Shown one piece after another: positions 1-23,772 of a stretch of 33,567 nucleotides of DNA; position 1 is the stretch's first letter; every line of letters starts with the position of its first letter. Made by a program: the position numbers and the translations under genes. This stretch comes from Dehalococcoidia bacterium (GTDB lineage Bacteria > Chloroflexota > Dehalococcoidia > SHYD01 > SHYC01). Under the pieces are notes generated by a model that saw only the letters and a program-made list of their open reading frames with translations, ran no database searches and had not been told where the DNA came from. The stretch lies in NCBI GenBank assembly GCA_009693005.1, contig SHYC01000004.1, positions 1 to 33,567 on the forward strand. Reading direction: 5' to 3'.

Positions 1-366
1 CGCGCCGATCGCCTTTCGGGCGGCAACATACAACGCATGATAATTGGGCGTGCTATAGCACGGAATCCGCAGGTCTTGATTGCCAGCTACCCAACCCAGG
101 GTCTGGACATCGTGACCATACGCCGGCTGATCTCGATACTGCTGCAGCTGCGCGATGAGGGAGTCAGCATTCTATATTTTTCAGAGGACCTGTCGGAACT
201 CTATGAGGTGTCGGACCAGTTGCTCGTTGTGACTCACGGACGCCTCCTTGGCCCGTTCGACCCAGCCGAGGTAGCGGCTTATGATATAGCGGGCATGATG
301 GTAGCCGGCGAAAACTACCACCTATCACGAGGTCTGTCTGACACAGTAGGAGTGCGTCATGAGTAA
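1..366 (+). CDS. ABC transporter ATP-binding protein, C-terminal part (BMP/nucleoside-type importer); truncated by window edge
   Basis: Frame 1 reads RADRLSGGNIQRMIIGRAIARNPQVLIASYPTQGLD: LSGGN(I)QR signature and degenerate Walker B/D-loop of a second NBD; directly followed by BMP-type permeases. Confidence 0.9.
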   Translation, partial: RADRLSGGNIQRMIIGRAIARNPQVLIASYPTQGLDIVTIRRLISILLQLRDEGVSILYFSEDLSELYEVSDQLLVVTHGRLLGPFDPAEVAAYDIAGMMVAGENYHLSRGLSDTVGVRHE

Positions 367-1417
367 TATCGCCACCTTCTTACGAGGCAGCCACCCACGG
401 CTGAGAACCAGTCTCAGGCCTGCCCTGATCACAACGCTCAGCGCGGTGATAGTGCCGCTGTGTTTGTTTTCCGTGTTTTTGATGATGGCCGGCGTCGCCC
501 CTCTCGATGCGTTTCGAGCGATGCTACAAAGTTCGCTCGGCTCATCATACGGGATAGGAGAGGTGCTCGTGAGAGCGGCTCCTTTTGCGCTCACGGCCCT
601 GGCTACGGCGATCCCGGCCCGTGCCGGCTTGCTGAACGTCGGCGCGGAAGGGCAGCTCGTAGTTGGAGCTCTTGGTGCAGCGGCTGCGTCTGCACTGCTA
701 AAGGACATAGGGATTGTTGGATTGCCTGTCCTGATTCTCGCAGGAATTATAGGCGGGGCAGCCTGGGCAGGCCTGGCAGCGGTTCTTCGGACCAAGCTGC
801 AGCTGAACGAGACCATCAGCACGTTGCTTCTGAACTACGTGGCATATCTGCTGGTCGCACATATTTTGCAGGGTCCTCTGAGAGACCCGGCGTCATTCAA
901 CTGGCCCTTCTCGCCGCCGATCCCTGACGGTATGAGGTTCCCAGTCTTGTTCGATTCAAGGGTACATCTTGGGTTGCTAATTGCGCCCGTGGCGGCCATA
1001 ATATTCGCGCTGGCGCTTTGGCGTACGTATTGGGGCCTGAACCTAAGAGTCACCGGAGGCAACCCGCAGGCTGCCCGGCGGGCGGGTATCGACGTAGCAA
1101 AGACTTATCTGACGGTGATGCTTATCGCGGGCGCAATGGCAGGACTGGCCGGAGTGCTGCAGGTAGTTGGTGTCGAAGGGCGTCTTCGCCCCAGCACGGG
1201 CGTAGGCTTTGGTTACTCCGGATTCCTGGCTGCATGGATGGTTAGTCATCATCCTCTTTGGCTACTGGGATCATCACTACTGCTGGCCGCGATTGTGGTG
1301 AGTGGTGACGCCCTACAAATTACCTCCGGCCTACCATCATCAACAGTTGGCATTCTCACCGCATTGGTGCTGTTGGGCGTGCTCGCCCGAGGTCACAGCC
1401 AGGGCGTGAGGTTGTAA
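359..1417 (+). CDS. ABC transporter permease (BMP/nucleoside family, YufP-like)
   Basis: Multi-TM protein with GLLNVGAEGQLVVGALGAA motif; ATG overlaps the upstream stop. Confidence 0.9.
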   Translation: MSNIATFLRGSHPRLRTSLRPALITTLSAVIVPLCLFSVFLMMAGVAPLDAFRAMLQSSLGSSYGIGEVLVRAAPFALTALATAIPARAGLLNVGAEGQLVVGALGAAAASALLKDIGIVGLPVLILAGIIGGAAWAGLAAVLRTKLQLNETISTLLLNYVAYLLVAHILQGPLRDPASFNWPFSPPIPDGMRFPVLFDSRVHLGLLIAPVAAIIFALALWRTYWGLNLRVTGGNPQAARRAGIDVAKTYLTVMLIAGAMAGLAGVLQVVGVEGRLRPSTGVGFGYSGFLAAWMVSHHPLWLLGSSLLLAAIVVSGDALQITSGLPSSTVGILTALVLLGVLARGHSQGVRL

Positions 1418-1418
1418 T

Positions 1419-2333
1419 ATGCTACCGATAATAATCGCCGTTCTGAGCGGCGCAATCCGATCTGGGACAGCGGTCCTCTTCGCTTGTTTGGGTGAAATAA
1501 TCGCTGAACGCGCCGGGGTGGTTAACCTCGGCACGGAGGGATGTATGCTCATCGGAGCGCTGGGAGCTTTCGCTGCCACTGCGATGACCGGAAATCCTTT
1601 CCTCGGAGCCTTTGTGGGCGGGTTGTGTGGAGCATCGCTGGCTGCAGTCCATGCCTACGTAGCCGTAATTCGCCGCGGAAATCAACTCGCCTCCGGTCTG
1701 GCGATTACCATTCTGGGGCTGGGCGTGACCTCTTTTTTCGGTAGATCATTTGTGGCCACTCAGATCAATGGGATGAATAGCATTTCGATTGCAGGTCTTT
1801 CCGATCTGCCGATTCTAGGACCAATATTATTCCAGCATGACGCGTTGACCTACCTTGCCGCATTCTTGGCTCCCGGAATTTGGTTCGTCCTGTATCGTAC
1901 TCGCTGGGGACTAATGCTTCGGGCCACAGGAGAACGCCAGGATGTTGTTTACTCCGTAGGATTAAGCCCAACGCTTATCCGATGTCTGGCGGTGATATGT
2001 GGTGGTTTTCTGGCCGGGCTCGGCGGCGCTCAGCTTTCGGTAGCGTACACATTGAATTGGGTCGAAAACATGACCCAGGGCCGTGGGTACGTCGCGGTGG
2101 CCCTGGTGATTTTCTCTTCATGGTCACCACTTACAGCGGTCGCCGGAAGCTACCTGTTTGGCGGCGCACTCTCGCTGCAGCTCGCACTGCAAGCTCGGGG
2201 CGTCGGCGCTTCTCCCTTCTTGATGTCTGCGATTCCCTACTTAGTCACACTCGCCGTTCTGGTACTGGTTGGGCGAAGGCGTCGCCAGGCCATGCCTGAT
2301 GAACTGAGAGCTGTCTTTGAAAGGGGCGGATAA
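1419..2333 (+). CDS. ABC transporter permease (BMP/nucleoside family, YufQ-like)
   Basis: ERAGVVNLGTEGCMLIGALGAF motif, multi-TM, tight operon spacing. Confidence 0.9.
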   Translation: MLPIIIAVLSGAIRSGTAVLFACLGEIIAERAGVVNLGTEGCMLIGALGAFAATAMTGNPFLGAFVGGLCGASLAAVHAYVAVIRRGNQLASGLAITILGLGVTSFFGRSFVATQINGMNSISIAGLSDLPILGPILFQHDALTYLAAFLAPGIWFVLYRTRWGLMLRATGERQDVVYSVGLSPTLIRCLAVICGGFLAGLGGAQLSVAYTLNWVENMTQGRGYVAVALVIFSSWSPLTAVAGSYLFGGALSLQLALQARGVGASPFLMSAIPYLVTLAVLVLVGRRRRQAMPDELRAVFERGG

Positions 2334-2355: not shown

Positions 2356-3495
2356 GTGAGGATAAACTCACGGTTAGTTGTAATGGCGGTAATGCTCATC
2401 GGGTCACTGATGTTAGCAGCCTGCGGTTCGCCGGCCGCGGCGCCGGCTGGATCAAAAGATGCGGCGGCGCCGGCCAGCGCAGTAACAACGGTTGGGTTCC
2501 TCTTTGTAGGCCCCAAGGATGACTTTGGGTACAATCAGGCCGCTTATCTCGGTAGCACCGGGATGGAGAAGGAACTCGGCTCAAAAGTCAAGGTAATTCG
2601 GGCTGAGAATGTTCCGGAAACGGAAGAAGCCGAGCGCGTGATGGAAAGCATGATTCAGCAGGGAGCGAAAGTCATTTTCCCGACCTCGTACGGACATTTG
2701 GACCCGGCGCTTAACGTCGCCAAACGGCATCCGGAGGTCACCTTCATTCACCAGGGCGGCTTGAAGACCTCGAGTAACTTAGGTACATACTTCGGAAACA
2801 TTTTTGAAGAGGTGTACCTCGGCGGCGTAACAGCCGGCAAAATGACCAAAACCAATAAGCTTGGATTCATCGCTTCCTTCCCGATTCCCCAAGTGTTGGA
2901 AAATATTAATGCGTTTGAACTTGGTGCGAAATCAGTTAATCCGAACGCCACCACATCTGTAGTGTTTACCGCAAACTGGTGCGATCCGGGTAAACAGGCC
3001 GAGGCGGCCAATAACCTTATTGCGCAGGGCGTGGACGTGTTGACGCAGCATCAAGATTGCACCAAGACAATAGTCGAGGCCGCCGAGCGCAAGGGTATCA
3101 TGTCCGTCGGGTATCATGCCGACGCCTCTTCGCTGGCTCCAAAAGGTTGGCTGACAGGCTCCGTTTGGAACTGGAGTCCACTATACACCCAAGAAGTGCA
3201 GGCCGTACTGGACGGCAAATGGAAAGAAGGTCCCCTTGCCGGTAAGTATCGGGTTGGCATGAAGGAAGGGGCCGTTAAGCTCGCTCCTTTTGGCTCCTCG
3301 GTTCCGGCCGACGTGCAGGCCCTAGTAAAACAGAAGGAGCAAGACATCATGAGCGGGAAACTGGCGCCGTTTGCCGGGCCGATTAAGGACCAAAGCGGCG
3401 CGGTGAAGATTGCAGCCGGCGTGAATCCAACTGTTGACCAGCTTGAGACAACCGACTATTTGGTTGAGGGCGTTGTTGGAAGTATTCCCCGTTAG
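2356..3495 (+). CDS. BMP-family ABC transporter substrate-binding lipoprotein
   Basis: Lipobox LMLAACGS; GFLFVGPKDDFGYNQAAYLG...; GTG start at 2356 preceded by GGAGGT (ORF track opens upstream at 2317). Confidence 0.88.
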   Translation: MRINSRLVVMAVMLIGSLMLAACGSPAAAPAGSKDAAAPASAVTTVGFLFVGPKDDFGYNQAAYLGSTGMEKELGSKVKVIRAENVPETEEAERVMESMIQQGAKVIFPTSYGHLDPALNVAKRHPEVTFIHQGGLKTSSNLGTYFGNIFEEVYLGGVTAGKMTKTNKLGFIASFPIPQVLENINAFELGAKSVNPNATTSVVFTANWCDPGKQAEAANNLIAQGVDVLTQHQDCTKTIVEAAERKGIMSVGYHADASSLAPKGWLTGSVWNWSPLYTQEVQAVLDGKWKEGPLAGKYRVGMKEGAVKLAPFGSSVPADVQALVKQKEQDIMSGKLAPFAGPIKDQSGAVKIAAGVNPTVDQLETTDYLVEGVVGSIPR

Positions 3496-3507: not shown

Positions 3508-4098
3508 GTGTTGATCGAAGCCGTCCCTTACCCTTGGCCGTACGACGGATTTGCTGCGGTGGAGAATACGGCGCTGGTGTTGGTCGCCCCGCAGATAGCC
3601 TTTACCTGGATGGACCCAGCCGGTCGAGTCGTGAGCGCTTGTGAGACAATATCAGAGGCGGCTGCCAGGGCAGGAATGGCGCAATGTATCATCCGTCTGG
3701 GGCGTACGGCAGTGACGCCCCAGCGGATGCCCGGTCTTCCCGCTCCGGGGTCATACGGGTGGGAATATACATCCAACTTTGAAATATCAGGTCGTAGTCT
3801 CGTAATAGACGCGCCGGCGCTAGACGGCTTTTACGCTACCGGCTTGGACTCAGCTCTCCGGGTTCGGCGGATCACTCATCTGGTGTTCGCTGGCTTCGGA
3901 ACCGAAACTATGGTACATTCCACACTGCGGTCCGCCAACGATCGCGGCTTCGAGTGCTTGGTATTGTCGGATGCGTGCGCCGATGTAAGTCCCGACCTTC
4001 ATCATGCGGCGTTGAGCTCTATCATGATGTCCGGTGGTATTTTCGGCGCTTATGCAGAAAGTCAAGCGTTCCTGGCCGGCTTGAATCAACGACCGTAG
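3508..4098 (+). CDS. Isochorismatase-fold (cysteine hydrolase superfamily) protein, predicted catalytically inactive
   Basis: [36 protein letters not shown] aligns with the neighbouring isochorismatase; Asp, Lys and Cys catalytic positions replaced. Confidence 0.8.
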   Translation: MLIEAVPYPWPYDGFAAVENTALVLVAPQIAFTWMDPAGRVVSACETISEAAARAGMAQCIIRLGRTAVTPQRMPGLPAPGSYGWEYTSNFEISGRSLVIDAPALDGFYATGLDSALRVRRITHLVFAGFGTETMVHSTLRSANDRGFECLVLSDACADVSPDLHHAALSSIMMSGGIFGAYAESQAFLAGLNQRP

Positions 4099-4198
4099 GA
4101 TCACGACAACGCAAGGAGGGTATTATTGAGGGCCTCCTGTGTGGATGGTGCCGGGTACGCCGATCAGTCAGATCAATATGAATGGAAGGACTTTGAGG

Positions 4199-4888
4199 AT
4201 GACCACTATTAAAGTGCAAGGCGACCCATATGACTGGCCCTTTGATGGTGGCTTGGACGTTGCCGGCACTGCTCTAATAAGTATCGACTGGCAGACTGAC
4301 TTTTGTGGCCCTGGTGGATATGTGGATGCCATGGGATATGACCTCAGCCTGACACGTGCCGGCATTGAGCCTACAAGGGACTTAATGCAAGCATGGCGGG
4401 CTCGCGGCGGACTCGTAATCCATACACGTGAGGGACATAAGCCTGACCTTTCTGACTGTCCCCCTAACAAGCTTTGGAGGTCGCAGCGCATAGGCGCAGG
4501 CATTGGTGATCCGGGGCCGTGCGGCCGGATTCTAATCCGTGGGGAGAAAGGCTGGGAAATCATCCCTGAGCTAGCGCCTTTGCCCGGTGAATTTATCATC
4601 GACAAACCCGGCAAGGGCGCTTTCTATGCAACCGACTTTGAACTGGTCCTGCATAATCATGGGATTACGCATCTTATCATTACGGGGATCACTACTGACG
4701 TGTGCGTGCACACGACAATGCGTGAGGCAAACGACAGGGGTTTCGAATGCTTGCTGGTCGAGGACTGCACGGGAGCCACAGACTATGGGAATTATCTGGC
4801 GGCGGTCAAGATGGTGAAGATGCAGGGTGGGGTCTTTGGGTCCGTAAGTTCGTCGGACAAGATCATAAAGGCACTCGGCGCAGAGTAA
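4199..4888 (+). CDS. biuH-like: Isochorismatase-family hydrolase, biuret hydrolase-like
   Basis: [105 protein letters not shown]; resembles BiuH as I recall it. Start ATG 4199 chosen (GGAAGGA upstream); ATG 4178 also possible. Confidence 0.8.
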
Positions 4889-6330
4889 TGCAAGAACCGA
4901 GCATCGTTCACAACAACTTTCGAGCGGCAAGGGACTACATCAATAACCTGGCATTCACCAATCCGGATTTGAACCTGGCGGTCAACCTGTCACCGGCGTA
5001 TTACAAGAAACCAAGGATCAAACCTAGCACAGTTCCCTTTGCCGCTCCCATAGCTCAGATGGTTGAGGGTTTTGTTAACCGTCAACATACGGTTGAGCAA
5101 GTTATACTCGAATCTATTGCAGCGGCCAAAGCAAATGCCGACCTGAAAGGCGTCGTCTATTTGGATGAAGACGGCGCGATCTCGGCTGCTCGTGCCAGCG
5201 ACGCCGCGCTGCGAGACGGTAAGCTCTCCGGCCCGCTGCACGGTATTCCAATTACGGTCAAAGATATCATGCATGTTGCAGGAATGCCCACGCGGGCGGG
5301 TTCTCTTGCCTACAACCAGATTGCCTCAATCGACGCCACTGCAGTAGCCCGCCTGCGTGCTGCGGGCGCTATCATTCTTGCAAAAGTGGCGACTCACGAG
5401 TTTGCGCTGGGAGTAACTACACCTCAAGCCAAGAACCCGTGGGACCCAAAGCGAATACCCGGAGGCTCGAGCGGAGGGTCCGCTATTGCGCTCGTAAAGG
5501 GCATCGGCATGGGATCGTTAGGGACTGATACTCGCGCCTCGATCAGGGTGCCATCCGCTCTATCTGGAGTCGTCGGTTTCAAAGCGACGTTCGGCAACGT
5601 GGATACAGCCGGTGTGGTTACCCTGTCATGGACAATGGACCACGTTGCCCCCATGGCGACAAACTCAGCCGACGCCGCTCTTCTAATGGACGTGATATCA
5701 AATAAACCGAAAGGTCTGTCAGGTTACGTGGGCGCTAAGGTCGATGGGCTGCGCATCGGTGTGCCCGACGCCGCCTTCGAAGACGCAGACCCCGATGTGG
5801 CCGCGGTCGTAGAAAGAGCCATCAAGTCAATTGGAGAGCTTGGGGGAATCATCATACCGGTCCGGCAGCCAACCAGGAGCCAACTGGAACTGGCAAATCT
5901 GGCAGGACTGATAGTGAGCCGGTGCGAAGCCCTGGCATATCACCGCAGCATCGGTACCGATCTGAGCAAGTGCTGGGATGAGACACGAGAGCAGCTTGAA
6001 GAAGCTATGGAGATTCCTGCATCTGAGTACCTGGCGGCACAGCGCTCACGCTCTGCATTAATTGCCGATATGCTCTCGTTGTTTGAAGATGTCGATGCGC
6101 TGGCAATGCCGACCAGCCTGGTTACCGCTCCACTCATTCCGGAAGCCCAGCAATATCTAATGACACTGGCCCGCAACTGCATTCCATGGAGTTTCGTTGG
6201 ATTCCCCTCGATTTCAGTACCCTGTAAAGAACTGGTGAATGGACTTCCGGTGGGTCTGCAAATTGTCGCTCCCCCGCAACATGAGGCCGTGTTGGTAGGA
6301 TTAGCCACCGCTTATGAACGATACTACTAA
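4888..6330 (+). CDS. Amidase-signature family amidohydrolase
   Basis: PLHGIPITVKDIM (Lys), PGGSSGGSA (cis-Ser), LGTDTRASIRVPSALSGVVGFKAT (Ser nucleophile); ATG 4888 overlaps upstream stop (TAATG). Confidence 0.9.
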   Translation: MQEPSIVHNNFRAARDYINNLAFTNPDLNLAVNLSPAYYKKPRIKPSTVPFAAPIAQMVEGFVNRQHTVEQVILESIAAAKANADLKGVVYLDEDGAISAARASDAALRDGKLSGPLHGIPITVKDIMHVAGMPTRAGSLAYNQIASIDATAVARLRAAGAIILAKVATHEFALGVTTPQAKNPWDPKRIPGGSSGGSAIALVKGIGMGSLGTDTRASIRVPSALSGVVGFKATFGNVDTAGVVTLSWTMDHVAPMATNSADAALLMDVISNKPKGLSGYVGAKVDGLRIGVPDAAFEDADPDVAAVVERAIKSIGELGGIIIPVRQPTRSQLELANLAGLIVSRCEALAYHRSIGTDLSKCWDETREQLEEAMEIPASEYLAAQRSRSALIADMLSLFEDVDALAMPTSLVTAPLIPEAQQYLMTLARNCIPWSFVGFPSISVPCKELVNGLPVGLQIVAPPQHEAVLVGLATAYERYY

Positions 6331-6757
6331 CAGTACGTCATCAGTTACGCAGGCTAACAAGGCGATCGTGCTGCAAATCTATGAGAGGATTTTGACTCAT
6401 GGTGAGCTGCAGTTAGCCGGTGAGGTTTTCGCCCCGGATATTGTCGACCACCGAAAATTCCCCGGACTGGCGAACGGCCTTGAGAATGTCCTGGCAGGTG
6501 CGCGGGTTAATCGAGAAGCCTTTCCGGATATGCGGTTTACTGTGGAAGCTTTAGTAGCCGAGGAGGACCTCGTGATGGCCCGATGGGTAATGCATGGTAC
6601 ATTCCTCGGAGAGTTCATGGGCAGGCAGCCCACCGGAACGTCCGTTGAATGGCGAGGGATCACACAATTTCGGCTGACCAACGGTAAGGTCGTGGAACGG
6701 TGGCTTTACGCCGATGAACTGCAATTGCTCGGTAACGGCGATTCAACGACGCTGTGA
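6314..6757 (+). CDS. SnoaL-like / NTF2-fold ester-cyclase family protein
   Basis: VLQIYERILTHGELQLAGEVFAPDIVDHRKFPG...FPDMRFTVEALVAEEDLVMARWVMHGTFLGEFMG; overlaps amidase end by 17 nt. Confidence 0.82.
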   Translation: MNDTTNSTSSVTQANKAIVLQIYERILTHGELQLAGEVFAPDIVDHRKFPGLANGLENVLAGARVNREAFPDMRFTVEALVAEEDLVMARWVMHGTFLGEFMGRQPTGTSVEWRGITQFRLTNGKVVERWLYADELQLLGNGDSTTL

Positions 6758-6772
6758 TCGTCGTCACAGTTA

Positions 6773-7606
6773 CTACCTGCCTGACTGAACTCCATCCAGA
6801 CTTACGGCCGGGTTGTAGTCCAGGATAACCAGCACCTCTTCAAGAGACTCCAACGGGACCGCGAGCCTGACATTTACGTCCTTGAACAAGTACATGTCTT
6901 TGCTGACAACGTCTGCTACCTGGCCTATGACTATATTCTTTGGCAGGCCACCGCCCAGTCCGGATGTGAGAACGACGTCGCCGGCCTTGATATCGGCGTC
7001 CTGTCTCACAAACTCCATGGACAGCTCGGAAGAGCCTATTCCAACCACAACACCCTCTGCTCTCGACCGGCTGATAATTGCATCCACGGCGCTCGAAGGA
7101 TCGGTAAGAAGCGTGATCTTGGAGGTATTATTGTAGACCTGCGTTACCTTCCCCACCAGACCGTTGGAGGCTACAACCACCGCGCCCTGCCTAACAGAAT
7201 CATGTGCGCCCTTATTCACGACCAAAGACTTGGTCAGGTTGTTTTGACCTCGACCTATGACCGTCGCAACCGCGTATTCTCGTCCAGGGTTATTCTTCTG
7301 ATATTCCAGGATGGCCCTCAGCCGCTGGTTTTCCAGATCCACCTCCTGCATCTGGGCCATCAGGTTGTTCAGTCTGACCACATCGTCCTTCAGGCTCTTG
7401 TTCTCCTGCTCGAGATAGCCGATGCGTCTGATGCTCTCTGCGAATCCGGAGACTATCCGGCTAACCAGGCTCATTCCTTCCTGCAGCGGAGAAACAGCCT
7501 CTACCCCCGCAGCTTCGACCGAAGCCATTGGGCCTGCGCCGGAAACGAAGCCACTGAACAGAAGACCTGCTGCCAGAATGGAAACTACGAACCATGGTCT
7601 TTTCAA
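6773..7606 (-). CDS. mreC: Rod shape-determining protein MreC
   Basis: Coiled-coil followed by VATVIGRGQNNLTKSLVVNKGAHDSVRQGAVVVASNGLVGKV; downstream of mreB. Confidence 0.9.
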   Translation of the reverse strand: MKRPWFVVSILAAGLLFSGFVSGAGPMASVEAAGVEAVSPLQEGMSLVSRIVSGFAESIRRIGYLEQENKSLKDDVVRLNNLMAQMQEVDLENQRLRAILEYQKNNPGREYAVATVIGRGQNNLTKSLVVNKGAHDSVRQGAVVVASNGLVGKVTQVYNNTSKITLLTDPSSAVDAIISRSRAEGVVVGIGSSELSMEFVRQDADIKAGDVVLTSGLGGGLPKNIVIGQVADVVSKDMYLFKDVNVRLAVPLESLEEVLVILDYNPAVSLDGVQSGR

Positions 7607-7657
7607 GACATTTACTTCCTGTTAGGCTTGACCAGCCTCAACACTAGCGTGCGGGGT

Positions 7658-8719
7658 TTAACGCGGAGGTTTCCTCTGGCTGAGCGAGGCCAAAAGAGGA
7701 CTGTCTTTATCTAGATTCTTGAGCATTTCTGCCGTTCCTCTCACGACACACGACAGCGGATCGTCTGCTATGGTGACCGGAAAGTGAGTGTCATGTGAAA
7801 TTCGCTGGTCAAGGCCCTCCAGCAAGGCGCCGCCGCCAGCCAGCACAATTCCACGGCCTATCAAGTCTGCTATCAGTTCAGGAGGCGTGAGCTCGATAGT
7901 GCTGCGAACAGCGTTAACAATTGCGTTTATTGATCCGGATAACGCGTCCCGTATCTCTATGCTGCTGATAGTAACCACTCTTGGCAGTCCGGTAACCAAG
8001 TCTCTGCCCTTTAGCTCCGCCTGTCGCTCTTCTTTTAGCGGGTAAGCAGAGCCTATTTTCATTTTTATATCCTCTGCCGTCCGCTCCCCTACGAGAAGGT
8101 TGTGGCTTTGCCGCGCATAGTCAATTATATCCTGGTCCATCTCGTCTCCGGCGGTCCTGAGACTGATACTGGCCACTATGCCGCCAAGAGAGATGACTGC
8201 CACCTCTGTGGTACCGCCACCGATGTCCACTATCATGCTGCCGCTGGCCTCCCTAACAGGAAGGCCAGCGCCTATAGCCGCCGCCAAAGGCTCCTCGATG
8301 AGAAAGCAAGCTCTGGCGCCGGCGTTTAACGCGGCATCATGTACGGCTCTCCGCTCTACCTCGGTAACACCGCTGGGAATTCCAACGACCAGCCTTGGTC
8401 TATGGATCGAAAACCCATTCCGTCCGTGCGCCTTGTTGATAAAATAGTGGAGCATCCGTTCGGTAGTGTCGAAGTCCGAAATCACGCCATCCCGTAGGGG
8501 CCTAATGGCCACTATTCTGGCAGGCGTACGGCCCACCATCTGCTTTGCTTCAAAACCAATAGCGTGTATCTTCTTAGTCAGCTTGTCTATAGCAACAACT
8601 GAGGGTTCATTTATGACAATGTCTTTACCCTTAACCATAACCAGGGTGTTTGCAGTGCCAAGATCGATACCAATATCATAAGAAAAAAATCCAAGTATGG
8701 TATCTATAGGGTTAAACAA
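7658..8719 (-). CDS. mreB: Rod shape-determining protein MreB
   Basis: DIGIDLGTANTLVMVKGKDIVINEPSVVAI...MIVDIGGGTTEVAVISLGGIV... Confidence 0.96.
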   Translation of the reverse strand: MFNPIDTILGFFSYDIGIDLGTANTLVMVKGKDIVINEPSVVAIDKLTKKIHAIGFEAKQMVGRTPARIVAIRPLRDGVISDFDTTERMLHYFINKAHGRNGFSIHRPRLVVGIPSGVTEVERRAVHDAALNAGARACFLIEEPLAAAIGAGLPVREASGSMIVDIGGGTTEVAVISLGGIVASISLRTAGDEMDQDIIDYARQSHNLLVGERTAEDIKMKIGSAYPLKEERQAELKGRDLVTGLPRVVTISSIEIRDALSGSINAIVNAVRSTIELTPPELIADLIGRGIVLAGGGALLEGLDQRISHDTHFPVTIADDPLSCVVRGTAEMLKNLDKDSPLLASLSQRKPPR

Positions 8720-14898: not shown

Positions 14899-16653
14899 AT
14901 GAAGCATAAATCTGACAGCCTAACCGTTATGGGTAGCAGGGTTTTCTATATACTAATGGGACTATGCAGTCTTCTCATCGCAGCAGCCTGTGGCCCATCG
15001 GCTACGCAAGCGCCCTCGGGAGGCCAAGATGCCGGGCAGCCACCCCAGGCCGGCTCTCAACGTCCCCAGAGCGGGGGAACATTGAGATTGATGGGTGGCG
15101 GATATGTAACTTACGGTACCGTAGATATCAACAGGAACAACACCGGCGCCCCGAACGGCTTTGTCGGCCAGTCAGTCAACCAGGTGGTGAAGCGGGAGCT
15201 CGCATCCGGAAAATACGAGATCGTTCCTGACCTCGCCGAGTCCTGGCAGGTGTCACCGGACGGTCTCACCTACACCTTCAAACTCCGTAAAGGCGTTAAG
15301 TTTCAGAACGTCCCTCCAGTCAACGGCCGTGAGTTCACCGCCGACGACGTGGAGTACATGATCAAGCGCACCAGCGCCGACCCGGAGATAGTGCCGGCTA
15401 AGTGGAAAGAGCTCTTCATTAGACGCTCGGACTTTACCAGCATCTCCTCCCTCACAAAACCCGACAAGTACACAGTGGTCATAAAATTGAAGCAGATCGA
15501 CGCCGTCTTCATGCACAACATGGCCACCCTGGGAACTGCGGTCGTGCCCCACGAGCTAATAGAGGAGAACCCGGACAAGCTTATCCAGGACAAGATAATA
15601 GGCACCGGCCCGTTCATCTGTAAGGAGTATGTCCCGGATGTGAGACAGTACTGTGACCGCAATCCGGATTACTGGAGGAAGGACGAATTCGGCACCCAGC
15701 TACCTTATCTGGACAGGCTGGAGAAGAACTTCTACGGGGGTTCAGATACGTCCGCAGCTGTCGCGGCCTTTCTCTCTGGTCAGATCGATACCTTGGCCTA
15801 TAACATTGGTGGCCCAACCTTGACCGACGCCGACATTAGCACGGTCATGAAGCAGATGAAGGATAAGGTCTATGTGATCAATAGCTCTAGCGGACAGTTT
15901 AGCCACCTCAGGTTCAACGCTGCCCGCGCGCCTTTCGACAACGTAAAAATGAGAAAAGCAGTCTATCTGGCCATAGACCGCCAGCAGATCATAGACTCTA
16001 TTGTCCCCGGCGGTGGTGAAATCACCGGTCTCGTTCCCCCTGCCCTCGCGGGTCAAGGCGCTCAGACGGTCGACGAGCTTATGAAGATGCCGGGCTACCG
16101 CCAGCCCAAGGACCAGGACATTGCCGAAGCCAAGCGGCTGGTCAAAGAGGCCGGTTACGAGGGAGTTACCGTGGAGATGAACACCTCCGGCGCCACGGCC
16201 ACCTCGGCTGACCTGGCAGCTCTAGTGAAAGAGCAGCTTGCCAAAGTAGGGATCAACGTCAAGGTAAAGCTCACCGCCAACTATCAGGACCATCTTAATG
16301 AGATGCTGGCAGACAAATTCCAGTTGACTTGGACTGGGCATGGGGCGTCGCCAGACCCGGACGAATATATCTACAAGCACTTCAATACCGATGGGGCCCG
16401 GAACTACTACAAGTTCTCTGATCCCAAGTGGGACCAGGTCTCGGCAAAACAGAGGTTTGCAGTAACGACGGAGGAGCGCACTAAGGCGATAAAAGAGGCC
16501 CTGGCCTTGCACTCCGAGATTGCGCCCAACGCGCCGATATACAGCAGCCTGAATCAGGACATCTACCGCAACTACACGCACGGTTTTGGCAAGCCCGTTC
16601 AACCTTATGATGGGAGAAACAACTTTGACCTGTACTGGATGGAGAAGCACTAG
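14899..16653 (+). CDS. ABC transporter substrate-binding lipoprotein, peptide/nickel type (SBP_bac_5), paralog 1
   Basis: Lipobox LLIAAACG; DLAESWQVSPDGLTYTFKLRKGVKFQNVPPVNGREFTADDVEYMIKR. Confidence 0.95.
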   Translation: MKHKSDSLTVMGSRVFYILMGLCSLLIAAACGPSATQAPSGGQDAGQPPQAGSQRPQSGGTLRLMGGGYVTYGTVDINRNNTGAPNGFVGQSVNQVVKRELASGKYEIVPDLAESWQVSPDGLTYTFKLRKGVKFQNVPPVNGREFTADDVEYMIKRTSADPEIVPAKWKELFIRRSDFTSISSLTKPDKYTVVIKLKQIDAVFMHNMATLGTAVVPHELIEENPDKLIQDKIIGTGPFICKEYVPDVRQYCDRNPDYWRKDEFGTQLPYLDRLEKNFYGGSDTSAAVAAFLSGQIDTLAYNIGGPTLTDADISTVMKQMKDKVYVINSSSGQFSHLRFNAARAPFDNVKMRKAVYLAIDRQQIIDSIVPGGGEITGLVPPALAGQGAQTVDELMKMPGYRQPKDQDIAEAKRLVKEAGYEGVTVEMNTSGATATSADLAALVKEQLAKVGINVKVKLTANYQDHLNEMLADKFQLTWTGHGASPDPDEYIYKHFNTDGARNYYKFSDPKWDQVSAKQRFAVTTEERTKAIKEALALHSEIAPNAPIYSSLNQDIYRNYTHGFGKPVQPYDGRNNFDLYWMEKH

Positions 16654-16738
16654 GCTATATAACAAAATGCAATTCTCTATATATTACGGGTGTAAGAAGC
16701 TTTGCAAGTATCGTGCCAGGGATAGGATGAGATAAGCA

Positions 16739-18457
16739 ATGGAGTTCCAGCCTGGGAAGAGTTTTTTGTGTTTATTACTAGGACTATGTGGCGTGCTAAT
16801 TGTGGCCTGCGGTCCATCGGGCACACCAGCGCAACCTGCGGGGCAGGGCGCCAAGCCAGCCACCGAAGCCCAACCAGAACGAGGCGGTACTTTGCGACTG
16901 CTGGCCGCGGGGCACTTAAATTATGGGACGACGGACCCACACAGGTCTCCCTTCGGTCCCATACCCTTTTCTGGACAGTCTACAAACAAGGTGCTCAAAC
17001 GCAACATAATGTCCGGCAACTACGAGATCATCCCCGAGCTTGCGGAGAGTTGGGATGCAGCGCCCGATGGCATGAGCTATACTTTTAGACTGCACAAGGG
17101 TGTGAAGTTCCACAATGTGCCACCAGTGAATGGTAGAGAGTTCACTGCCGATGACGTGGAGTACATGATACGGCGTATTAGCGCCGACCCGGAGATAGTA
17201 CCGGCTAAGTGGGTCCCCTTTTTTGTCAAGCGCAGCGACTTTGTGAACGTGGCTGGGTTCGAGAAACCAGACAAGTACACTATCGTTGTGAAAATGAAAA
17301 AGCCCGACCCCACCTTCCTCCACAACATGGCTAACAACAGTGCCGTTATCCTTCCGCATGAGCTAATAGAGGAGAATCCAGAGAAGCTGGTCCAGGACAA
17401 GATAATTGGCACGGGACCCTTCATGCACAAAGAGTATGTGCCCGATGTCAGGCATGTAGTTGAGCGCAATCCCGACTACTGGAAGAAGGATGAGCGGGGC
17501 GTCCAACTGCCGTACCTTGATAAGCTAGTTAAGGACTATTACTCATCCAGGGGTGCCGACGTTGCAGCATCCGTGGCTGCGTTCCTCTCTGGCCAGATAG
17601 ACGCCCTGGCTGCCATAGGTGGCGGGAACAACCTTAACAGTGCCGACATAGAGACAGTAATGAGGCAGATGGGGGACAAATCCTATGCTACCTCCAGCCC
17701 TGGCTACGGTGTTTTCCACCTGAGATTCAACACCAAGCGGCCCCCCTTTGATAATGTAAAGATGAGGCGCGCCGTGACACTGGCCCTGGACCGGGAGCAG
17801 ATAAAATCAGCTCTCTCGGCCCCCTCGACACTGAGCGGCTTCATCCCTCCGCTCCTCGCCGAAGGCGGGGCCCAAACCGTGGAAAACCTCCTCAAGTTGC
17901 CCGGCTACCGGGAGCCGAAAGAACAGGATATTGCGGAAGCCAAGAAGCTGGTGCGGGAAGCTGGTTTTGATGGCGTCGCTGTGGGAGTTCACTTTCATAA
18001 CCCAGACTGGGTTGACTCAGCATCCATAATCAAGGAGCAGTTAGGGCGGATCGGAATTAATGTAAGCATAACAATTAACGCCAGTTCTGAGGTTAGTATA
18101 GCCAACATGGAGGCCAACAAGTTCGAGATGATGCTATGGAGCCAAGCCTTCGATGGGGAGATTGGTGAGTACGTCTATTCCCATTTCCACACCAAGGGGT
18201 CCAGGAATTACTACAAGTTCTCTGACCCCAATTGGGACGACCTAGCTGAGAAGCAGAGGGCTGCGGTTAACTTAGAGGAGAGAAAGAAGATAATTAAAGA
18301 GGTTATTGCCTATCAAGTGGATATAGTGCCCAATGCCCCTATATCAAGCGGCTTGACTAGGAGCATCTATCGCAGCTATACACACGGCTTTGGAACGCCG
18401 GTCAATTCGGGCGACGCCAGTCAGAACACTGATGTGTACTGGGTGGACAAGCACTAG
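16739..18457 (+). CDS. ABC transporter substrate-binding lipoprotein, SBP_bac_5, paralog 2
   Basis: Lipobox VLIVACG; ELAESWDAAPDGMSYTFRLHKGVKFHNVPPVNGREFTADDVEYM. Confidence 0.95.
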   Translation: MEFQPGKSFLCLLLGLCGVLIVACGPSGTPAQPAGQGAKPATEAQPERGGTLRLLAAGHLNYGTTDPHRSPFGPIPFSGQSTNKVLKRNIMSGNYEIIPELAESWDAAPDGMSYTFRLHKGVKFHNVPPVNGREFTADDVEYMIRRISADPEIVPAKWVPFFVKRSDFVNVAGFEKPDKYTIVVKMKKPDPTFLHNMANNSAVILPHELIEENPEKLVQDKIIGTGPFMHKEYVPDVRHVVERNPDYWKKDERGVQLPYLDKLVKDYYSSRGADVAASVAAFLSGQIDALAAIGGGNNLNSADIETVMRQMGDKSYATSSPGYGVFHLRFNTKRPPFDNVKMRRAVTLALDREQIKSALSAPSTLSGFIPPLLAEGGAQTVENLLKLPGYREPKEQDIAEAKKLVREAGFDGVAVGVHFHNPDWVDSASIIKEQLGRIGINVSITINASSEVSIANMEANKFEMMLWSQAFDGEIGEYVYSHFHTKGSRNYYKFSDPNWDDLAEKQRAAVNLEERKKIIKEVIAYQVDIVPNAPISSGLTRSIYRSYTHGFGTPVNSGDASQNTDVYWVDKH

Positions 18458-18492
18458 GCTATACGCTCAAAGATATGCTTTGGCCCTTATCG

Positions 18493-18524
18493 GGGGCGCC
18501 TGTATAAGGCGCCCCTCCTTTTTT
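18493..18524 (+). terminator. Rho-independent terminator after SBP paralog 2
   Basis: GGGGCGCC-TGTATAA-GGCGCCCC perfect 8-bp stem followed by TCCTTTTTTA. Confidence 0.88.
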
Positions 18525-18535
18525 ATGTATATTTA

Positions 18536-18564
18536 TTGACAATCCATTATGTCTAAGGTATAAC
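18536..18564 (+). promoter_or_regulatory. Sigma70-type promoter upstream of SBP paralog 3
   Basis: TTGACA (18536-18541) - 17 nt - TATAAC (18559-18564), just after the terminator. Confidence 0.75.
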
Positions 18565-18854
18565 CATCTAATATATTATGAATAGGGTATATCGAAGCTT
18601 TCTTTTATGGCAACATAAGCGGCTTCACAGGTCGTTACCAATCTACCGTTATTATAAGCCAGGAGGGTTCAGAAATATGCGAGTGACTTGAGCAACAGGA
18701 CCGCAGACGCCCACATTGCTATTCCAACCAAACCATCTTCGTTGACAAAACTCAGGAATTGCGGCAGACCCAATGCGCACACGGAGTTGTTTCAATACAG
18801 GCCATTAGCGGGCAGGGAGATTATTCAGGAAGTTAAAAGGAGTCGACCAAATAA

Positions 18855-20591
18855 ATGCAGCATCAATTTAATAGAACAAGGTTTTTCTATATATTACTTG
18901 GGCTATGCAGCCTTCTTATCGCGGCGGCCTGCGGTCCCTCGGCAACCCAAGCGCCGTCCGGCACGCAGGGTGGGGCGCAGCCGCCAACTACCTCCGACAA
19001 GCCCCAGAAGGGTGGAATATTGAAGCTGATGGGTGGCGGTTACGTCTCCTACGGCACCACCGACGCTCACAGAGCTTCCTTCGGCCCTCCCACGGGCTTC
19101 TCAGCCCAGTCTGTCAACCAGGTTGTCAAGCGCAACCTCATGTCCGGCAAATACGAGATCATTCCCGAGCTTGCTGAAAGCTGGACACAATCACCCGACG
19201 GCCTCACTTATACCTTCAAGCTCCAGAAGGGCGTCAAGTTCCAGAACCTGCCGCCTGTCAATGGTAGAGAGTTCACCTCAGACGACGTGGAGTACATGAT
19301 CAAGCGCATTAGCGCCGATCCGGCCATCGTCCTTGAGAAATGGACTCAGCTTTTCACCCGGCGCTCCGATTTCACCTCCATATCATCTATTGAGAAGCCG
19401 GACAAATACACGATTATCGTAAAGATGAAGCAGCCCGATGCTGTATTCATGCACAATTTGGCAACAATCGGCTCCATTATCGTTCCCAAAGAAATGATAG
19501 ATGAAAACCCGGACAAGCTAATACAGGACAAGATAATAGGCACTGGTCCCTTCATCTGTAAAGAGTATGTCCCCGATGTAAGGCACTACTGCGACCGCAA
19601 TCCTGACTACTGGAAGAAAGATGCGGATGGAGTACAGCTGCCTTACTTTGACAGACTGGAGAAGAACTTCTACAGCGGCGGGGATACTTCCGGTGCGGTT
19701 GCAGCCTTCCTCTCCAGCCAGACCGACGTGCTGGCAGGCTCTATCGCAAGCTTCTCTCTCACTGATGCAGACATTAAAACCGTGATGAACCAGATGAAAG
19801 ACAAGGCGTACATGATCGCCAACTCCGGCAGCAACTTCTCACATCTCAGAATCAATGCTACTCGGGCTCCGTTCAACAACGTCAAGATGCGTCAGGCAGT
19901 GAATCTTGCGATTGACCGCCAGCAAATAATAGACTCGACTGTTCCGGGAGGCGCGGAACTCAGCGGAATCGTCCCGCCCGCTCTGTCGGATGGCGGCGCA
20001 CAGACAGGAGACGAGCTTATGAAGCTTCCCGGCTACAGACCGCAGAAAGACCAGGACATCGCTGAGGCAAAGAAGCTGGTGAAGGATGCAGGCTTCGAGG
20101 GCGTCACTATAGAGATGAACACCTCGGGTGGCACAGCAACTAGCGCCGACCAGGCTTCCCTTGTTAAGCAGCAGCTAGCCAAAATAGGGATTACAGTAAA
20201 CATAAAACTGACTGCCAACTATCAGGACCATCTTAATGAGATGCTGGCAGACAAATTCCAGTTGACTTGGACTGGGCATGGGGCTTCTCCTGACTTTGAT
20301 GAATACATATATAAGCATCTCCACTCCAAGGGCGCGAGGAACTATTACAAGTTTTCCGATCCCAAGTGGGACCAGTTGGCTGATAAGCAGAGATTCGCAG
20401 CCAACCTTGAAGAGCGCAAGAAAGCCGTCAAAGAAGCTGTTGCGTATCACGAAGAGATTGTTCCCAATGTCATCTTGTATGCAAGCTTGAACCAGAGCAT
20501 ATACCGGAACTACACCCACGGCTGGGGAAAGCCGGTGCAACCTTATGACGGTTTGACCTCTTTTGACGAGTACTGGATGGAGAAGCGCTAG
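18855..20591 (+). CDS. ABC transporter substrate-binding lipoprotein, SBP_bac_5, paralog 3
   Basis: Lipobox LLIAAACG; ELAESWTQSPDGLTYTFKLQKGVKFQNLPPVNGREFTSDDVEYMIKR. Confidence 0.95.
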   Translation: MQHQFNRTRFFYILLGLCSLLIAAACGPSATQAPSGTQGGAQPPTTSDKPQKGGILKLMGGGYVSYGTTDAHRASFGPPTGFSAQSVNQVVKRNLMSGKYEIIPELAESWTQSPDGLTYTFKLQKGVKFQNLPPVNGREFTSDDVEYMIKRISADPAIVLEKWTQLFTRRSDFTSISSIEKPDKYTIIVKMKQPDAVFMHNLATIGSIIVPKEMIDENPDKLIQDKIIGTGPFICKEYVPDVRHYCDRNPDYWKKDADGVQLPYFDRLEKNFYSGGDTSGAVAAFLSSQTDVLAGSIASFSLTDADIKTVMNQMKDKAYMIANSGSNFSHLRINATRAPFNNVKMRQAVNLAIDRQQIIDSTVPGGAELSGIVPPALSDGGAQTGDELMKLPGYRPQKDQDIAEAKKLVKDAGFEGVTIEMNTSGGTATSADQASLVKQQLAKIGITVNIKLTANYQDHLNEMLADKFQLTWTGHGASPDFDEYIYKHLHSKGARNYYKFSDPKWDQLADKQRFAANLEERKKAVKEAVAYHEEIVPNVILYASLNQSIYRNYTHGWGKPVQPYDGLTSFDEYWMEKR

Positions 20592-20628
20592 GACAAAGGC
20601 TTGTAACAACGTAGAGTACAATCTACTA

Positions 20629-20658
20629 TTGACATCGACCTGAAATTTGGAGTATAAC
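20629..20658 (+). promoter_or_regulatory. Sigma70-type promoter upstream of SBP paralog 4
   Basis: TTGACA (20629-20634) - 18 nt - TATAAC (20653-20658). Confidence 0.7.
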
Positions 20659-20680
20659 CTAACCACCGACTAATAAAACC

Positions 20681-20716
20681 TAACTTCTCCCTTACCAAAT
20701 AGTAAGGGAGAAGTTA
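20681..20716 (+). promoter_or_regulatory. Perfect 15-bp stem-loop in 5' leader of SBP paralog 4
   Basis: TAACTTCTCCCTTAC-CAAATA-GTAAGGGAGAAGTTA; no downstream T-tract on + strand. Confidence 0.7.
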
Positions 20717-20774
20717 TAAGCTGAACATGGAGTTCCGCTCAGGAGGAAAGGGAGAAGTGTTAATAACGTAGTGC

Positions 20775-20812
20775 TGAGTAGGCTAACTGTTAGGCCGCAG
20801 CTAGCCTACTCA
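20775..20812. repeat. 11-bp perfect inverted repeat in leader of SBP paralog 4
   Basis: TGAGTAGGCTA-N16-TAGCCTACTCA. Confidence 0.6.
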
Positions 20813-20938
20813 TGTGCGTTAGTCTCTCTTAAGCCCGTAGATATCATCAAGTAAACATCGTTTAACCGTTGAATTTTCCTAGAGTTGCTATTGAGACTAT
20901 AAAAGGGGACCTGCTGTAGAGAATAGGAGGGGATGTTA

Positions 20939-22693
20939 ATGTTCCAGACTTGTAGTGAGCCTGGCCGAACTAAAGGAAAAGCTGCCCTGGTATGGGCATA
21001 TCTCGCTGCAAGCGCTCTGCTGCTGGCAGCCTGCGGTCCATCGGCAACACAAACACCATCCGGAACCCAAAGTGAACAGCCACCACAGGCTCAAGGACAG
21101 CCGCAGCGTGGTGGAGCATTCCGCGTTATGGTTTCGGGATATGTGTCCTACGGAACAGTAGACGCTCACCGCGCCTCATTTAGCCCACCGGTCGGTTTCG
21201 CCGGCCAATCCGTTAATCAGATTGTCAAACGCAACCTCAATTCCGGCAAGTATGATATCATTCCAGACCTGGCAGAAAGCTGGCAGGTCTCTCCGGACGG
21301 GCTTACCTACACTTTCAAGCTCCACAAAGGCGTCAAGTTCCAGAACGTCCCTCCGGTCAACGGCAGAGAGTTCACCTCAGACGACGTGGAGTATATGATA
21401 AAGCGCATCAGCGCAGACCCATCGATAGTGCTCGACAAATGGAAGGACCTGTTCACCAGGCGCAGTGATTTTACCAGCGTCGCCAGCATCGAGAAGCCGG
21501 ACAAGTACACCGTAGTAGTTAGGATGAAGCAGCCTGATGCAGTCTTCATGCATAACATGGCCACTATCGGCACGATCATCGTGCCCAAAGAGATGATAGA
21601 TGAAAACCCGGACAGGCTTATCCAGGACAAGATCATAGGCACCGGTCCTTTTATCTGTAAGGAATATGTGCCGGACGTCAGACAGTACTGCGACCGCAAT
21701 CCGGACTACTGGAAGAAGGATGAAAATGGCACTCAACTACCCTATCTGGACAGGCTGGAGAAGAATTTCTATAGCGGGGGCGATACTTCTGGGGCCATTG
21801 CTGCCTTCCTGGCGGGCCAGATCGAAGCGCTGGCTGGTCAAGGTGGTGGTCCACCGTCCCTAACCGATGCAGACATAACTACGATAACGAAGCAGATGGG
21901 CGATAAGGCCTACTTGATCACCAGTTCCGGTGGAAATTTCGGACATATCAGGATCAACGCCAAGCGTCCGCCTTTCGACAATGTAAAGATGAGAAGGGCC
22001 GTTTATCTGGCAATAGACCGGCAGCAGATCATCGATTCGACCAATCGGGGTGGCGCGGAGATCAGCGCCCTTATTCCGCCAGCCCTCGCAGGAGGCGGTG
22101 CGCAGTCGGTGGATGACTTGTTGAAGCTGCCGGGCTATCGCCAGCCCAAGGACCAGGATATCGCCGAGGCCAAGAGGCTGGTCAAGGAGGCCGGTTACGA
22201 TGGAGCCACGATAGATATGAACACATCGGGCAGCACAGCAGTAATCGCAGATCTGGCAGCCCTTATTAAGGAGCAGCTAGGCAAAGCAGGTATAAATGTC
22301 AACGTAAAGCTGACAGCTAACTATCAGGACCATCTGAACGAGATGCTGGCCGACAAGTTTAACCTTACTTACACGGGCCATGGCGCCTCCCCTGACCCTG
22401 ACGAGTATATCTACAAGCACTTCGCTACCAAAGGAGCCAGGAACTACTACAAGTTCTCTGACCCCAAGTGGGACCAGCTCGCTGAGAAGCAGAGGGCTGC
22501 GGTTACTGACGAGGAGCGCAAAAAGGCGGTGCAGGAGGCTGTAGCGTACCACGCTGAAGTGGCGCCCTCTGTTCCCTTGTCTGCCACCTACAATCAGTTC
22601 TTTTACCGTTCTTACACTCACGGTTTTGGCAAGCCAGTGCAGAACGTTGATGGCAGCGCCTACTTCGATGTCTACTGGATGGACAAGCGCTAG
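20939..22693 (+). CDS. ABC transporter substrate-binding lipoprotein, SBP_bac_5, paralog 4
   Basis: Lipobox ALLLAACG; DLAESWQVSPDGLTYTFKLHKGVKFQNVPPVNGREFTSDDVEYM; ATG 20939 sits better behind AGGAGGG than ATG 20933. Confidence 0.95.
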   Translation: MFQTCSEPGRTKGKAALVWAYLAASALLLAACGPSATQTPSGTQSEQPPQAQGQPQRGGAFRVMVSGYVSYGTVDAHRASFSPPVGFAGQSVNQIVKRNLNSGKYDIIPDLAESWQVSPDGLTYTFKLHKGVKFQNVPPVNGREFTSDDVEYMIKRISADPSIVLDKWKDLFTRRSDFTSVASIEKPDKYTVVVRMKQPDAVFMHNMATIGTIIVPKEMIDENPDRLIQDKIIGTGPFICKEYVPDVRQYCDRNPDYWKKDENGTQLPYLDRLEKNFYSGGDTSGAIAAFLAGQIEALAGQGGGPPSLTDADITTITKQMGDKAYLITSSGGNFGHIRINAKRPPFDNVKMRRAVYLAIDRQQIIDSTNRGGAEISALIPPALAGGGAQSVDDLLKLPGYRQPKDQDIAEAKRLVKEAGYDGATIDMNTSGSTAVIADLAALIKEQLGKAGINVNVKLTANYQDHLNEMLADKFNLTYTGHGASPDPDEYIYKHFATKGARNYYKFSDPKWDQLAEKQRAAVTDEERKKAVQEAVAYHAEVAPSVPLSATYNQFFYRSYTHGFGKPVQNVDGSAYFDVYWMDKR

Positions 22694-22770: not shown

Positions 22771-23718
22771 ATGACGAGGTTTATCGTACGCAGACTATTA
22801 ATGCTCATTCCGGTGCTTTTAGGTGTCAGCCTCCTTATATTCACGCTGATGCGGGTTGTGCCCACAGACGTAGCAGCAATGATGCTGGGGGAGAACGTAT
22901 CTACAGAGACCCTGGCCAGCCTTCGGAAGGACCTTGGACTGGACAAACCGATCCCGCTCCAATATTTCGAATGGATCAGCAACGTCGTGAGGGGTGACCT
23001 GGGGCGCTCTATCTGGTTGCCAGACAAAACGGTGACCGAACGACTTTTGCAGCGCTTGCCAGTTACCTTTGAGCTGGCCCTAATAGCCACCTCGGTGGGC
23101 ATAATATCCGGCATATCCTTTGGTGTGCTGGCAGCAGTCCGCCAGGATACCTGGGTGGACAATGTGGCGCGGGCCGTAGGCATCATTGGCCTGGCGGCTC
23201 CGAGCTTCTGGATAGCTACGATAGTAATTCTCTTTCCAGCTATTTTCTGGGGCTGGTCTATTCCAGCAGCCTACGTGGATCTTACGGAGAACCCGGGCAA
23301 CCATCTAATGAAGATCGTGCCGGCGGCGTTGGTATTGGGCTTTTCACTTACCGCTACCGTAATGCGTTATAGCCGTACCACCCTGCTTGAGGTGCTGCGT
23401 CAAGACTATGTAAGGACCGCACGCGCGAAGGGTCTGACCGAAAGAGTTGTCATTTACCGCCATGCGTTGAAAAACGCTCTGATACCTGTGGTAACCATAT
23501 CCGGCCAGGCGTTCGCGAGGCAGCTCGGCGGTACCGTGATCATAGAGACAGTGTTCAATATCCCTGGCGTTGGCCTTCTCATGATAGGCGCAATAACCGC
23601 CAGGGACTATAACATGGTCCAGGGGGGAATTCTAATCCTGGCCCTCTTCCTCGCTTTCTCTAACCTTGTAGTGGACGTACTATACGCTGTATTGGATCCG
23701 CGGATACGCTACAGCTAG
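22771..23718 (+). CDS. ABC transporter permease, DppB/OppB-like
   Basis: MTRFIVRRLLMLIPVLLGVSLLIFTLMRVVPTD...DYVRTARAKGLTERVVIYRHALKNALIPVVT; GGAGG at correct spacing. Confidence 0.96.
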   Translation: MTRFIVRRLLMLIPVLLGVSLLIFTLMRVVPTDVAAMMLGENVSTETLASLRKDLGLDKPIPLQYFEWISNVVRGDLGRSIWLPDKTVTERLLQRLPVTFELALIATSVGIISGISFGVLAAVRQDTWVDNVARAVGIIGLAAPSFWIATIVILFPAIFWGWSIPAAYVDLTENPGNHLMKIVPAALVLGFSLTATVMRYSRTTLLEVLRQDYVRTARAKGLTERVVIYRHALKNALIPVVTISGQAFARQLGGTVIIETVFNIPGVGLLMIGAITARDYNMVQGGILILALFLAFSNLVVDVLYAVLDPRIRYS

Positions 23719-23772
23719 GCCAATAATGTTTTTGGACACCGACAGAATACGATTAGAGGGGGGGTATTTATA

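Follow-up and report, generated by a model that had tools for sequence, protein, structure and literature searches.

Biuret hydrolase (BiuH) frees nitrogen from a urea-like compound, converting biuret to allophanate. Genes for a BMP-type ABC transporter together with biuH and either atzF or a gene for a GatA-like amidase, often accompanied by trtA, are known from Rhizobium, Herbaspirillum, and nitrifying bacteria and archaea (PMC12625717, PMC7948467). Such biuH operons are also present on plasmids of Rhizobium, Enterobacter, and Pseudomonas luteola, and the second isochorismatase-like gene at the proteobacterial loci examined encodes an intact TrtA-type protein. The BiuH dimer is built by helices α2, α4, and α5, and each active site receives Gln215 from the opposite subunit, a residue that binds the far end of biuret; when it is replaced in Rhizobium BiuH (Q215A), catalytic efficiency with biuret (kcat/KM) drops about 400-fold, from 149742 to 357 per s per M (PMC5806882). 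In TrtA, Gln202 plays the equivalent neighbor-subunit role, and where it is placed distinguishes triuret from biuret specificity (PMC7948467). In both hydrolases, active sites are thus shared by two subunits, and substrate choice is believed to depend on where the neighbor's Gln lies (PMC7948467).

The window, i.e., the whole stretch of 33,567 nucleotides that was analyzed, is the entire contig of an incomplete genome from Dehalococcoidia. It encodes an operon in the order ABC ATPase, two permeases, AtzT-like binding protein, a catalytically dead paralog of BiuH, BiuH itself, GatA-like amidase, and SnoaL-like protein (Table 1), which is best explained as serving to import and hydrolyze biuret or related ureides. 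The dead ORF begins 12 bases 3' of the binding-protein gene and ends 100 bases 5' of biuH, and the ATG of the amidase gene overlaps the biuH stop codon. The gene downstream of the dead ORF, presented in an earlier note on this DNA as the active paralog, does exceed the equivalog cut-off for BiuH (Table 1). A purine ligand as for AtzT was considered for the binding protein and rejected, as Glu165, Asn218, and Asn220 of AtzT are replaced by Gln, His, and Asp, respectively, under an assumed residue-number offset. Between the dead gene and biuH, a frame of about 27 codons (4127-4210, + strand) follows a strong AAGGAGG and ends just inside the biuH start; it may be a leader peptide or due to chance, and in another genome with the same operon (G001, see below) the corresponding gap is longer (319 bases). 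Elsewhere in the window, extracellular binding proteins of family 5 (SBP_bac_5) are encoded by four genes in tandem (14899-22693, + strand), which precede one ABC permease set (22771-24681); three copies share about 75% identity, and the copy at 16739-18457 about 56%. Also, a 461-amino-acid protein (29626-31011, + strand) has no Pfam match at E 1e-5, and its N-terminus (NNIAPMCQVHNQAKG) is similar to the end of an HNH-type motif.

Table 1. Operon genes and sites of interest in the window.
Feature	Position	Strand	Basis
ABC ATPase, 3' end, gene cut by contig end	1-366	+	63% identity to G001 ATPase
ABC permease 1	359-1417	+	PF02653; locus comparison
ABC permease 2	1419-2333	+	PF02653; orthologs
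BMP-family substrate-binding lipoprotein, AtzT-like (ORF open from 2317)	2362-3495	+	PF02608; PDB 6pi5, E 1e-92
Catalytically dead isochorismatase-fold paralog of BiuH, 196 amino acids	3508-4098	+	PF00857; HMMER and family alignments; AlphaFold2/Foldseek
Ala27 codon (site of catalytic Asp36)	3586-3588	+	Alignments
Ala102 codon (site of catalytic Lys142)	3811-3813	+	Alignments
Leu105 codon (site of substrate-binding Lys145)	3820-3822	+	Alignments; role of Lys145 from PMC5806882
Met135 codon (site of nucleophile Cys175)	3910-3912	+	Alignments
Segment matching BiuH dimer-interface helix α4 (STLRSANDR)	3919-3945	+	Alignment; helix according to PMC5806882
Loop MSGGIFGA, trans-Gln215 loop of BiuH; Ser175 (4030-4032) for Gln	4027-4050	+	Alignment
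biuH, intact; Asp30, Lys136, Cys169, and trans-Gln209 present	4199-4888	+	NF050097, 401 bits (cut-off 370)
Amidase-signature (GatA-like) amidase, candidate allophanate hydrolase	4888-6330	+	PF01425; follows biuH in related loci
SnoaL-like protein, final operon gene, present in G001 too	6314-6757	+	PF07366

The dead ORF is intact and free of internal stops; it starts with GTG, and TTG at 3511 is an alternative start. With 85 bits against PF00857 (cut-off 27) and an alignment covering positions 1-168 of the 175 of the profile, its product belongs to the proteins of isochorismatase-like fold. The best NCBIfam model is NF050097 (BiuH), to which it scores 125 bits against the equivalog cut-off of 370, which leaves it outside BiuH proper. 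An AlphaFold2 model, obtained from a six-sequence alignment with input from the window and loci L038 and L039, is of moderate confidence (pLDDT 72.7, pTM 0.79). When searched with Foldseek, the top matches are crystal structures of BiuH and TrtA (E about 1e-16, TM-score 0.84 by query length), BiuH being first in the PDB, and structures of BiuH, TrtA, and RutB match at a TM-score of about 0.8. As modeled, the dead protein keeps the isochorismatase fold. It is 33 residues shorter than BiuH, mainly due to a truncated mobile loop and a missing helix α2 region. The view that ORF and fold motifs are well preserved holds for the ORF and, with regard to the PF00857 match and the predicted fold, for the protein, but not for the 33 residues, including part of the mobile loop and helix α2, that have been lost.

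Besides the window's genome (G000), one genome from another family of the same order (G001) and two from two further families of the class Dehalococcoidia (G175 and G337) contain the dead gene, all four being MAG-type assemblies with a completeness of 74-95%. In G001 the operon is the same, and its dead copy, an ortholog of 56% identity, shows the same losses; BiuH of G001 is 81% identical to that of the window. G175 and G337 likewise have this operon, with a dead copy that has diverged further and occupies precisely the same place. In all four families the dead gene is situated between the gene for the AtzT-like binding protein and biuH. Nine other biuH loci of Dehalococcoidia are adjoined by the same binding-protein type but do without the dead gene, which is therefore optional. 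The tandem of dead and active genes beside BMP transporters, whose conservation in other genomes the earlier note had suggested surveying, thus recurs at 4 of the 13 Dehalococcoidia biuH loci of that context and is not general. Loci that have the dead gene and loci that lack it cannot be told apart by the residues lining the binding-protein pocket, which argues against a changed imported substrate, and a different ligand at the dead-gene loci was discarded as an explanation.

The survey covered about 1,100 genomes of one phylum as well as plasmids and, across all GTDB species, two narrow pattern scans, and copies in other phyla may have escaped it. No dead copy without biuH was found in the genome searches, and in the genera of G175 and G337 the one other genome searched carries neither gene, so that the two genes appear and disappear as a pair. 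A scan of genome contigs from all GTDB species with a single narrow pattern yielded nothing, nor did a search of viral contigs. On plasmids, no match reached 60% identity, the places aligned being intact genes for BiuH or TrtA-type proteins. One Dehalococcoidia locus without the dead gene, L070 (G369), has biuH and a second, intact TrtA-like gene (4719-5402 and 7151-7843). Triad-less isochorismatase-fold proteins are also encoded elsewhere in Dehalococcoidia, i.e., at L066 (G340:C84), L027 (G029:C165), and L008/L076 (G047:C3), with Asp replaced by His, Lys by Asn or Gly, and Cys by Ala or Val; biuH is absent from the stretches examined around them, and they are further pseudoenzyme candidates. 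In other Chloroflexota, L093, L094, L096-L103, L105, and L106 form a common group that keeps Asp and Lys and has Gly at the Cys site (GISTNxGVEST-like).

Numbering residues as in Rhizobium BiuH, we aligned the dead protein with HMMER to the crystallized BiuH and also within a family alignment. The earlier note had concluded by eye that the catalytic Asp, Lys, and Cys are all replaced, and the independent HMMER alignment agrees (Asp36 to Ala27, Lys142 to Ala102, and Cys175 to Met135). Losses that had not been recognized before comprise Lys145 (Leu), Thr171 (Gly), the trans-acting Gln215 (Ser), Glu84, and Tyr47, all of them named as substrate-contact or pocket residues for BiuH or TrtA (PMC5806882, PMC7948467), and the window's dead protein retains Gln38, Phe41, Phe148, Thr151, Gly169, and Thr179. 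Neither the Asp36-Lys142-Cys175 triad, Lys145, and trans-Gln215 of BiuH nor the triad and Gln202 of TrtA are found. An intact triad that has moved elsewhere in the protein is ruled out, because there is not a single lysine in its whole sequence. The triad is lost in all four dead copies, three of which are free of lysine, the fourth having one C-terminal Lys; in G175 and G337 the β1 Asp motif is deleted, Lys142 is replaced by Arg, and Cys175 by Gly. As judged from the alignments, the dead protein lacks everything needed for the cysteine-hydrolase reaction, and its non-catalytic nature is well supported. Since nearly every known biuret-contacting residue is gone, a role as ligand sensor, which the earlier note had also envisaged, becomes less likely.

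Some members of the isochorismatase superfamily work without Cys, and in our survey Cys is missing from many members in which Asp and Lys are retained. One might therefore ask whether the dead protein is an enzyme after all, converting some other substrate with different catalytic machinery, for which a pocket lining of Phe148, Thr151, and Gly169 would remain. However, in the dead proteins Asp and Lys have gone as well, the β1 Asp motif is deleted in G175 and G337, and three of the proteins contain no lysine at all. The one aligned Cys that the four share (Cys190 of BiuH) is found in every BiuH and hence is no new nucleophile. We regard such an enzyme as hardly probable at all.

Phylogenetic analysis groups the four dead proteins in one clade (support 98/92, and 96/89 after removal of two long rows, with a long-branch warning), and they do not group with TrtA. 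Their BiuH partners split in the same way, (G000, G001) and (G175, G337), indicating that the dead gene has been inherited together with biuH. In the BiuH tree, eight of the nine loci without the dead gene form a derived group, so that the pattern is explained simply by a single gain and a single later loss, although two gains are possible. Descent of the dead copies from a decayed TrtA is disfavored, as grouping them with true TrtA gives an AU p of 0.029 and their N-terminus is BiuH-like; grouping with BiuH (AU p 0.24) is neither rejected nor shown, long branches limiting the tree. Dead sequences are few and far apart, so that it is uncertain how deep the clade is and whether it arose from BiuH or earlier.

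For the dead copies of G175 and G337, dN is 0.34 and dS is 1.03, corresponding to a dN/dS of about 0.33, whereas dS between G000 and G001 (2.8) is near saturation. As a neutral null, the same number of nucleotide differences was placed at random and amino-acid identities were compared: the dead copies of G000 and G001 share 0.56 of their residues versus 0.32 expected (null maximum 0.40), and those of G175 and G337 share 0.60 versus 0.40 expected (null maximum 0.47). BiuH has a dN of 0.09-0.12, the dead proteins evolving three to four times faster at non-synonymous sites. Constraint on the dead proteins is weaker than on BiuH, yet clear. Gly147, Glu173, and Ser211, and also Ser215 at the position of Gln215, are fixed in the four dead copies and absent from the 15 BiuH sequences. 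A slowly decaying remnant of a duplicated biuH or trtA, kept in the operon by chance, would be expected to be shorter and faster evolving than BiuH and, as a losable gene, to be missing from related biuH loci, as indeed observed. It is nevertheless very improbable in view of intact frames in four genomes of four families, the dN/dS value, identities far above the null, the four fixed residues, and the AU test against TrtA. Purifying selection over a long time is well supported by these comparisons, and four intact copies in one clade, with a dN/dS of about 0.33 where measurable, are what is expected of a pseudoenzyme, i.e., an intact, conserved protein that has lost its catalytic residues. The earlier suggestion of a selected non-catalytic role is therefore borne out: triad and substrate residues are lost, and the gene is kept in four families 5' of biuH with mirrored trees.

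At the trans-Gln position, all 15 BiuH and all 7 TrtA-like sequences have Gln, and all four dead copies have Ser. Within each pair of dead orthologs, helix α4 is identical (9/9), and the Ser-bearing loop is identical at 8/8 and 6/8 positions. Helix α5 is poorly conserved (4/12 and 6/12) and α2 is deleted, and a BiuH-type interface is thus only partly kept. ANDRGFECL is common to the dead protein and BiuH of the window; recent gene conversion was ruled out, because five of the nine codons differ synonymously. The end of α4 reads ANDRG in both partners of G000 and G001 and ANDLG in both partners of G175 and G337; as these are two independent states, we do not count them as evidence.

A regulatory or heteromeric partner role seems plausible, and we tentatively propose, giving it slightly less than an even chance, that the dead ORF encodes a selected pseudoenzyme paralog which acts as a partner subunit of BiuH and dampens or re-tunes the BiuH active site. 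We infer that such a heteromer would form via the family's usual dimer face, and that the dead subunit would offer Ser where the other subunit normally gives Gln. The BiuH site facing it would lose its tight grip on biuret, and BiuH/BiuH pairs would stay fully active. As Q215A cuts kcat/KM so strongly, a BiuH/dead pair would be poor on biuret, and the dead subunit might thereby reduce, buffer, or re-tune what BiuH does. It is conceivable but doubtful that, through Ser-for-Gln in the shared active site of such a heteromeric biuret hydrolase, the affinity or specificity of the enzyme is determined by the proportion of dead and active subunits. What speaks for regulation of this prozyme type is linkage within the operon, the matching of the trees, and a dimer face that is conserved in part.

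Because that face is partly lost, the gene is optional, and the pocket of the binding protein is unchanged, the dead protein could also have a function of its own. The dead protein might act alone as a homo-oligomer with a new non-catalytic job, such as ureide binding or regulation, and make no contact with BiuH. Its predicted fold is kept, in four genomes its gene is flanked by those for transporter and enzyme, interface helices α2 and α5 are lost or diverged, and BiuH keeps its own trans-Gln and so needs no partner. However, with nearly all known biuret contacts lost, binding of biuret in the old pocket is unlikely, and α4 and the old trans-position loop are among the best conserved parts of the dead protein, suggesting that the old dimer face still matters; we consider an isolated homo-oligomer unlikely. 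Quite improbable is an assembly or scaffold factor that helps BiuH to fold or holds it near the transporter, leaving the active site untouched. The place of the dead gene at all four loci, where it follows the binding-protein gene and immediately precedes biuH, and the partly conserved dimer face would suit it, but BiuH homologs work without the dead protein both at other loci and when purified alone (PMC5806882, PMC7948467), and the fixed Ser at the trans position would be left unexplained.

As far as the literature was searched (isochorismatase combined with pseudoenzyme), a dead BiuH partner is not described; the operon type is already known, and a conserved pseudoenzyme partner in a biuret-hydrolase operon seems to be new. 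By the same search, pseudoenzyme partners of cysteine hydrolases with the isochorismatase fold would not have been reported before. If true, the heteromer would mean that an enzyme of the isochorismatase superfamily is controlled via an active site to which both subunits contribute, and a conserved dead paralog lacking just the Gln in question would be a natural experiment on the idea that its position sets the substrate. It would also bear on the handling of organic nitrogen by uncultured Chloroflexota.

Among known systems, the Trypanosoma AdoMetDC prozyme is a dead paralog that pairs with and modulates an active enzyme, as proposed here, although the enzyme is unrelated; for the prozyme, complex formation and activation are demonstrated (PMC5201418), whereas for the present paralog they are proposed. 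Loci of ammonia-oxidizing archaea and bacteria have the same content of BMP transporter, biuH, and GatA-like amidase genes for biuret-type ureides, but unlike for the window's operon, the passages of that report on biuH and isochorismatases do not mention a dead paralog (PMC12625717). TrtA (Herbaspirillum sp. BH-1, PDB 6xix) is the usual second isochorismatase-like gene product of biuret/triuret operons, and the dead gene likewise is the second such gene in an operon with a BMP transporter and biuH. Like BiuH, TrtA has its active site completed by a Gln from the other subunit; in contrast to the dead protein, it keeps the full triad and Gln202, and trtA is located elsewhere in the operon. By sequence and predicted structure, the nearest relatives of the dead protein are BiuH from Rhizobium leguminosarum 3841 (PDB 6azo) and Rhodococcus sp. 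Mel (PDB 6xjm), represented by NF050097. The dead protein differs from these by the absence of Asp, Lys, Cys, Lys145, Thr171, Glu84, and trans-Gln215, by its shorter length, and by its lower score, and it has in common with them the N-terminal PYPWPYDG hairpin, helix α4, and the GGxFG loop.
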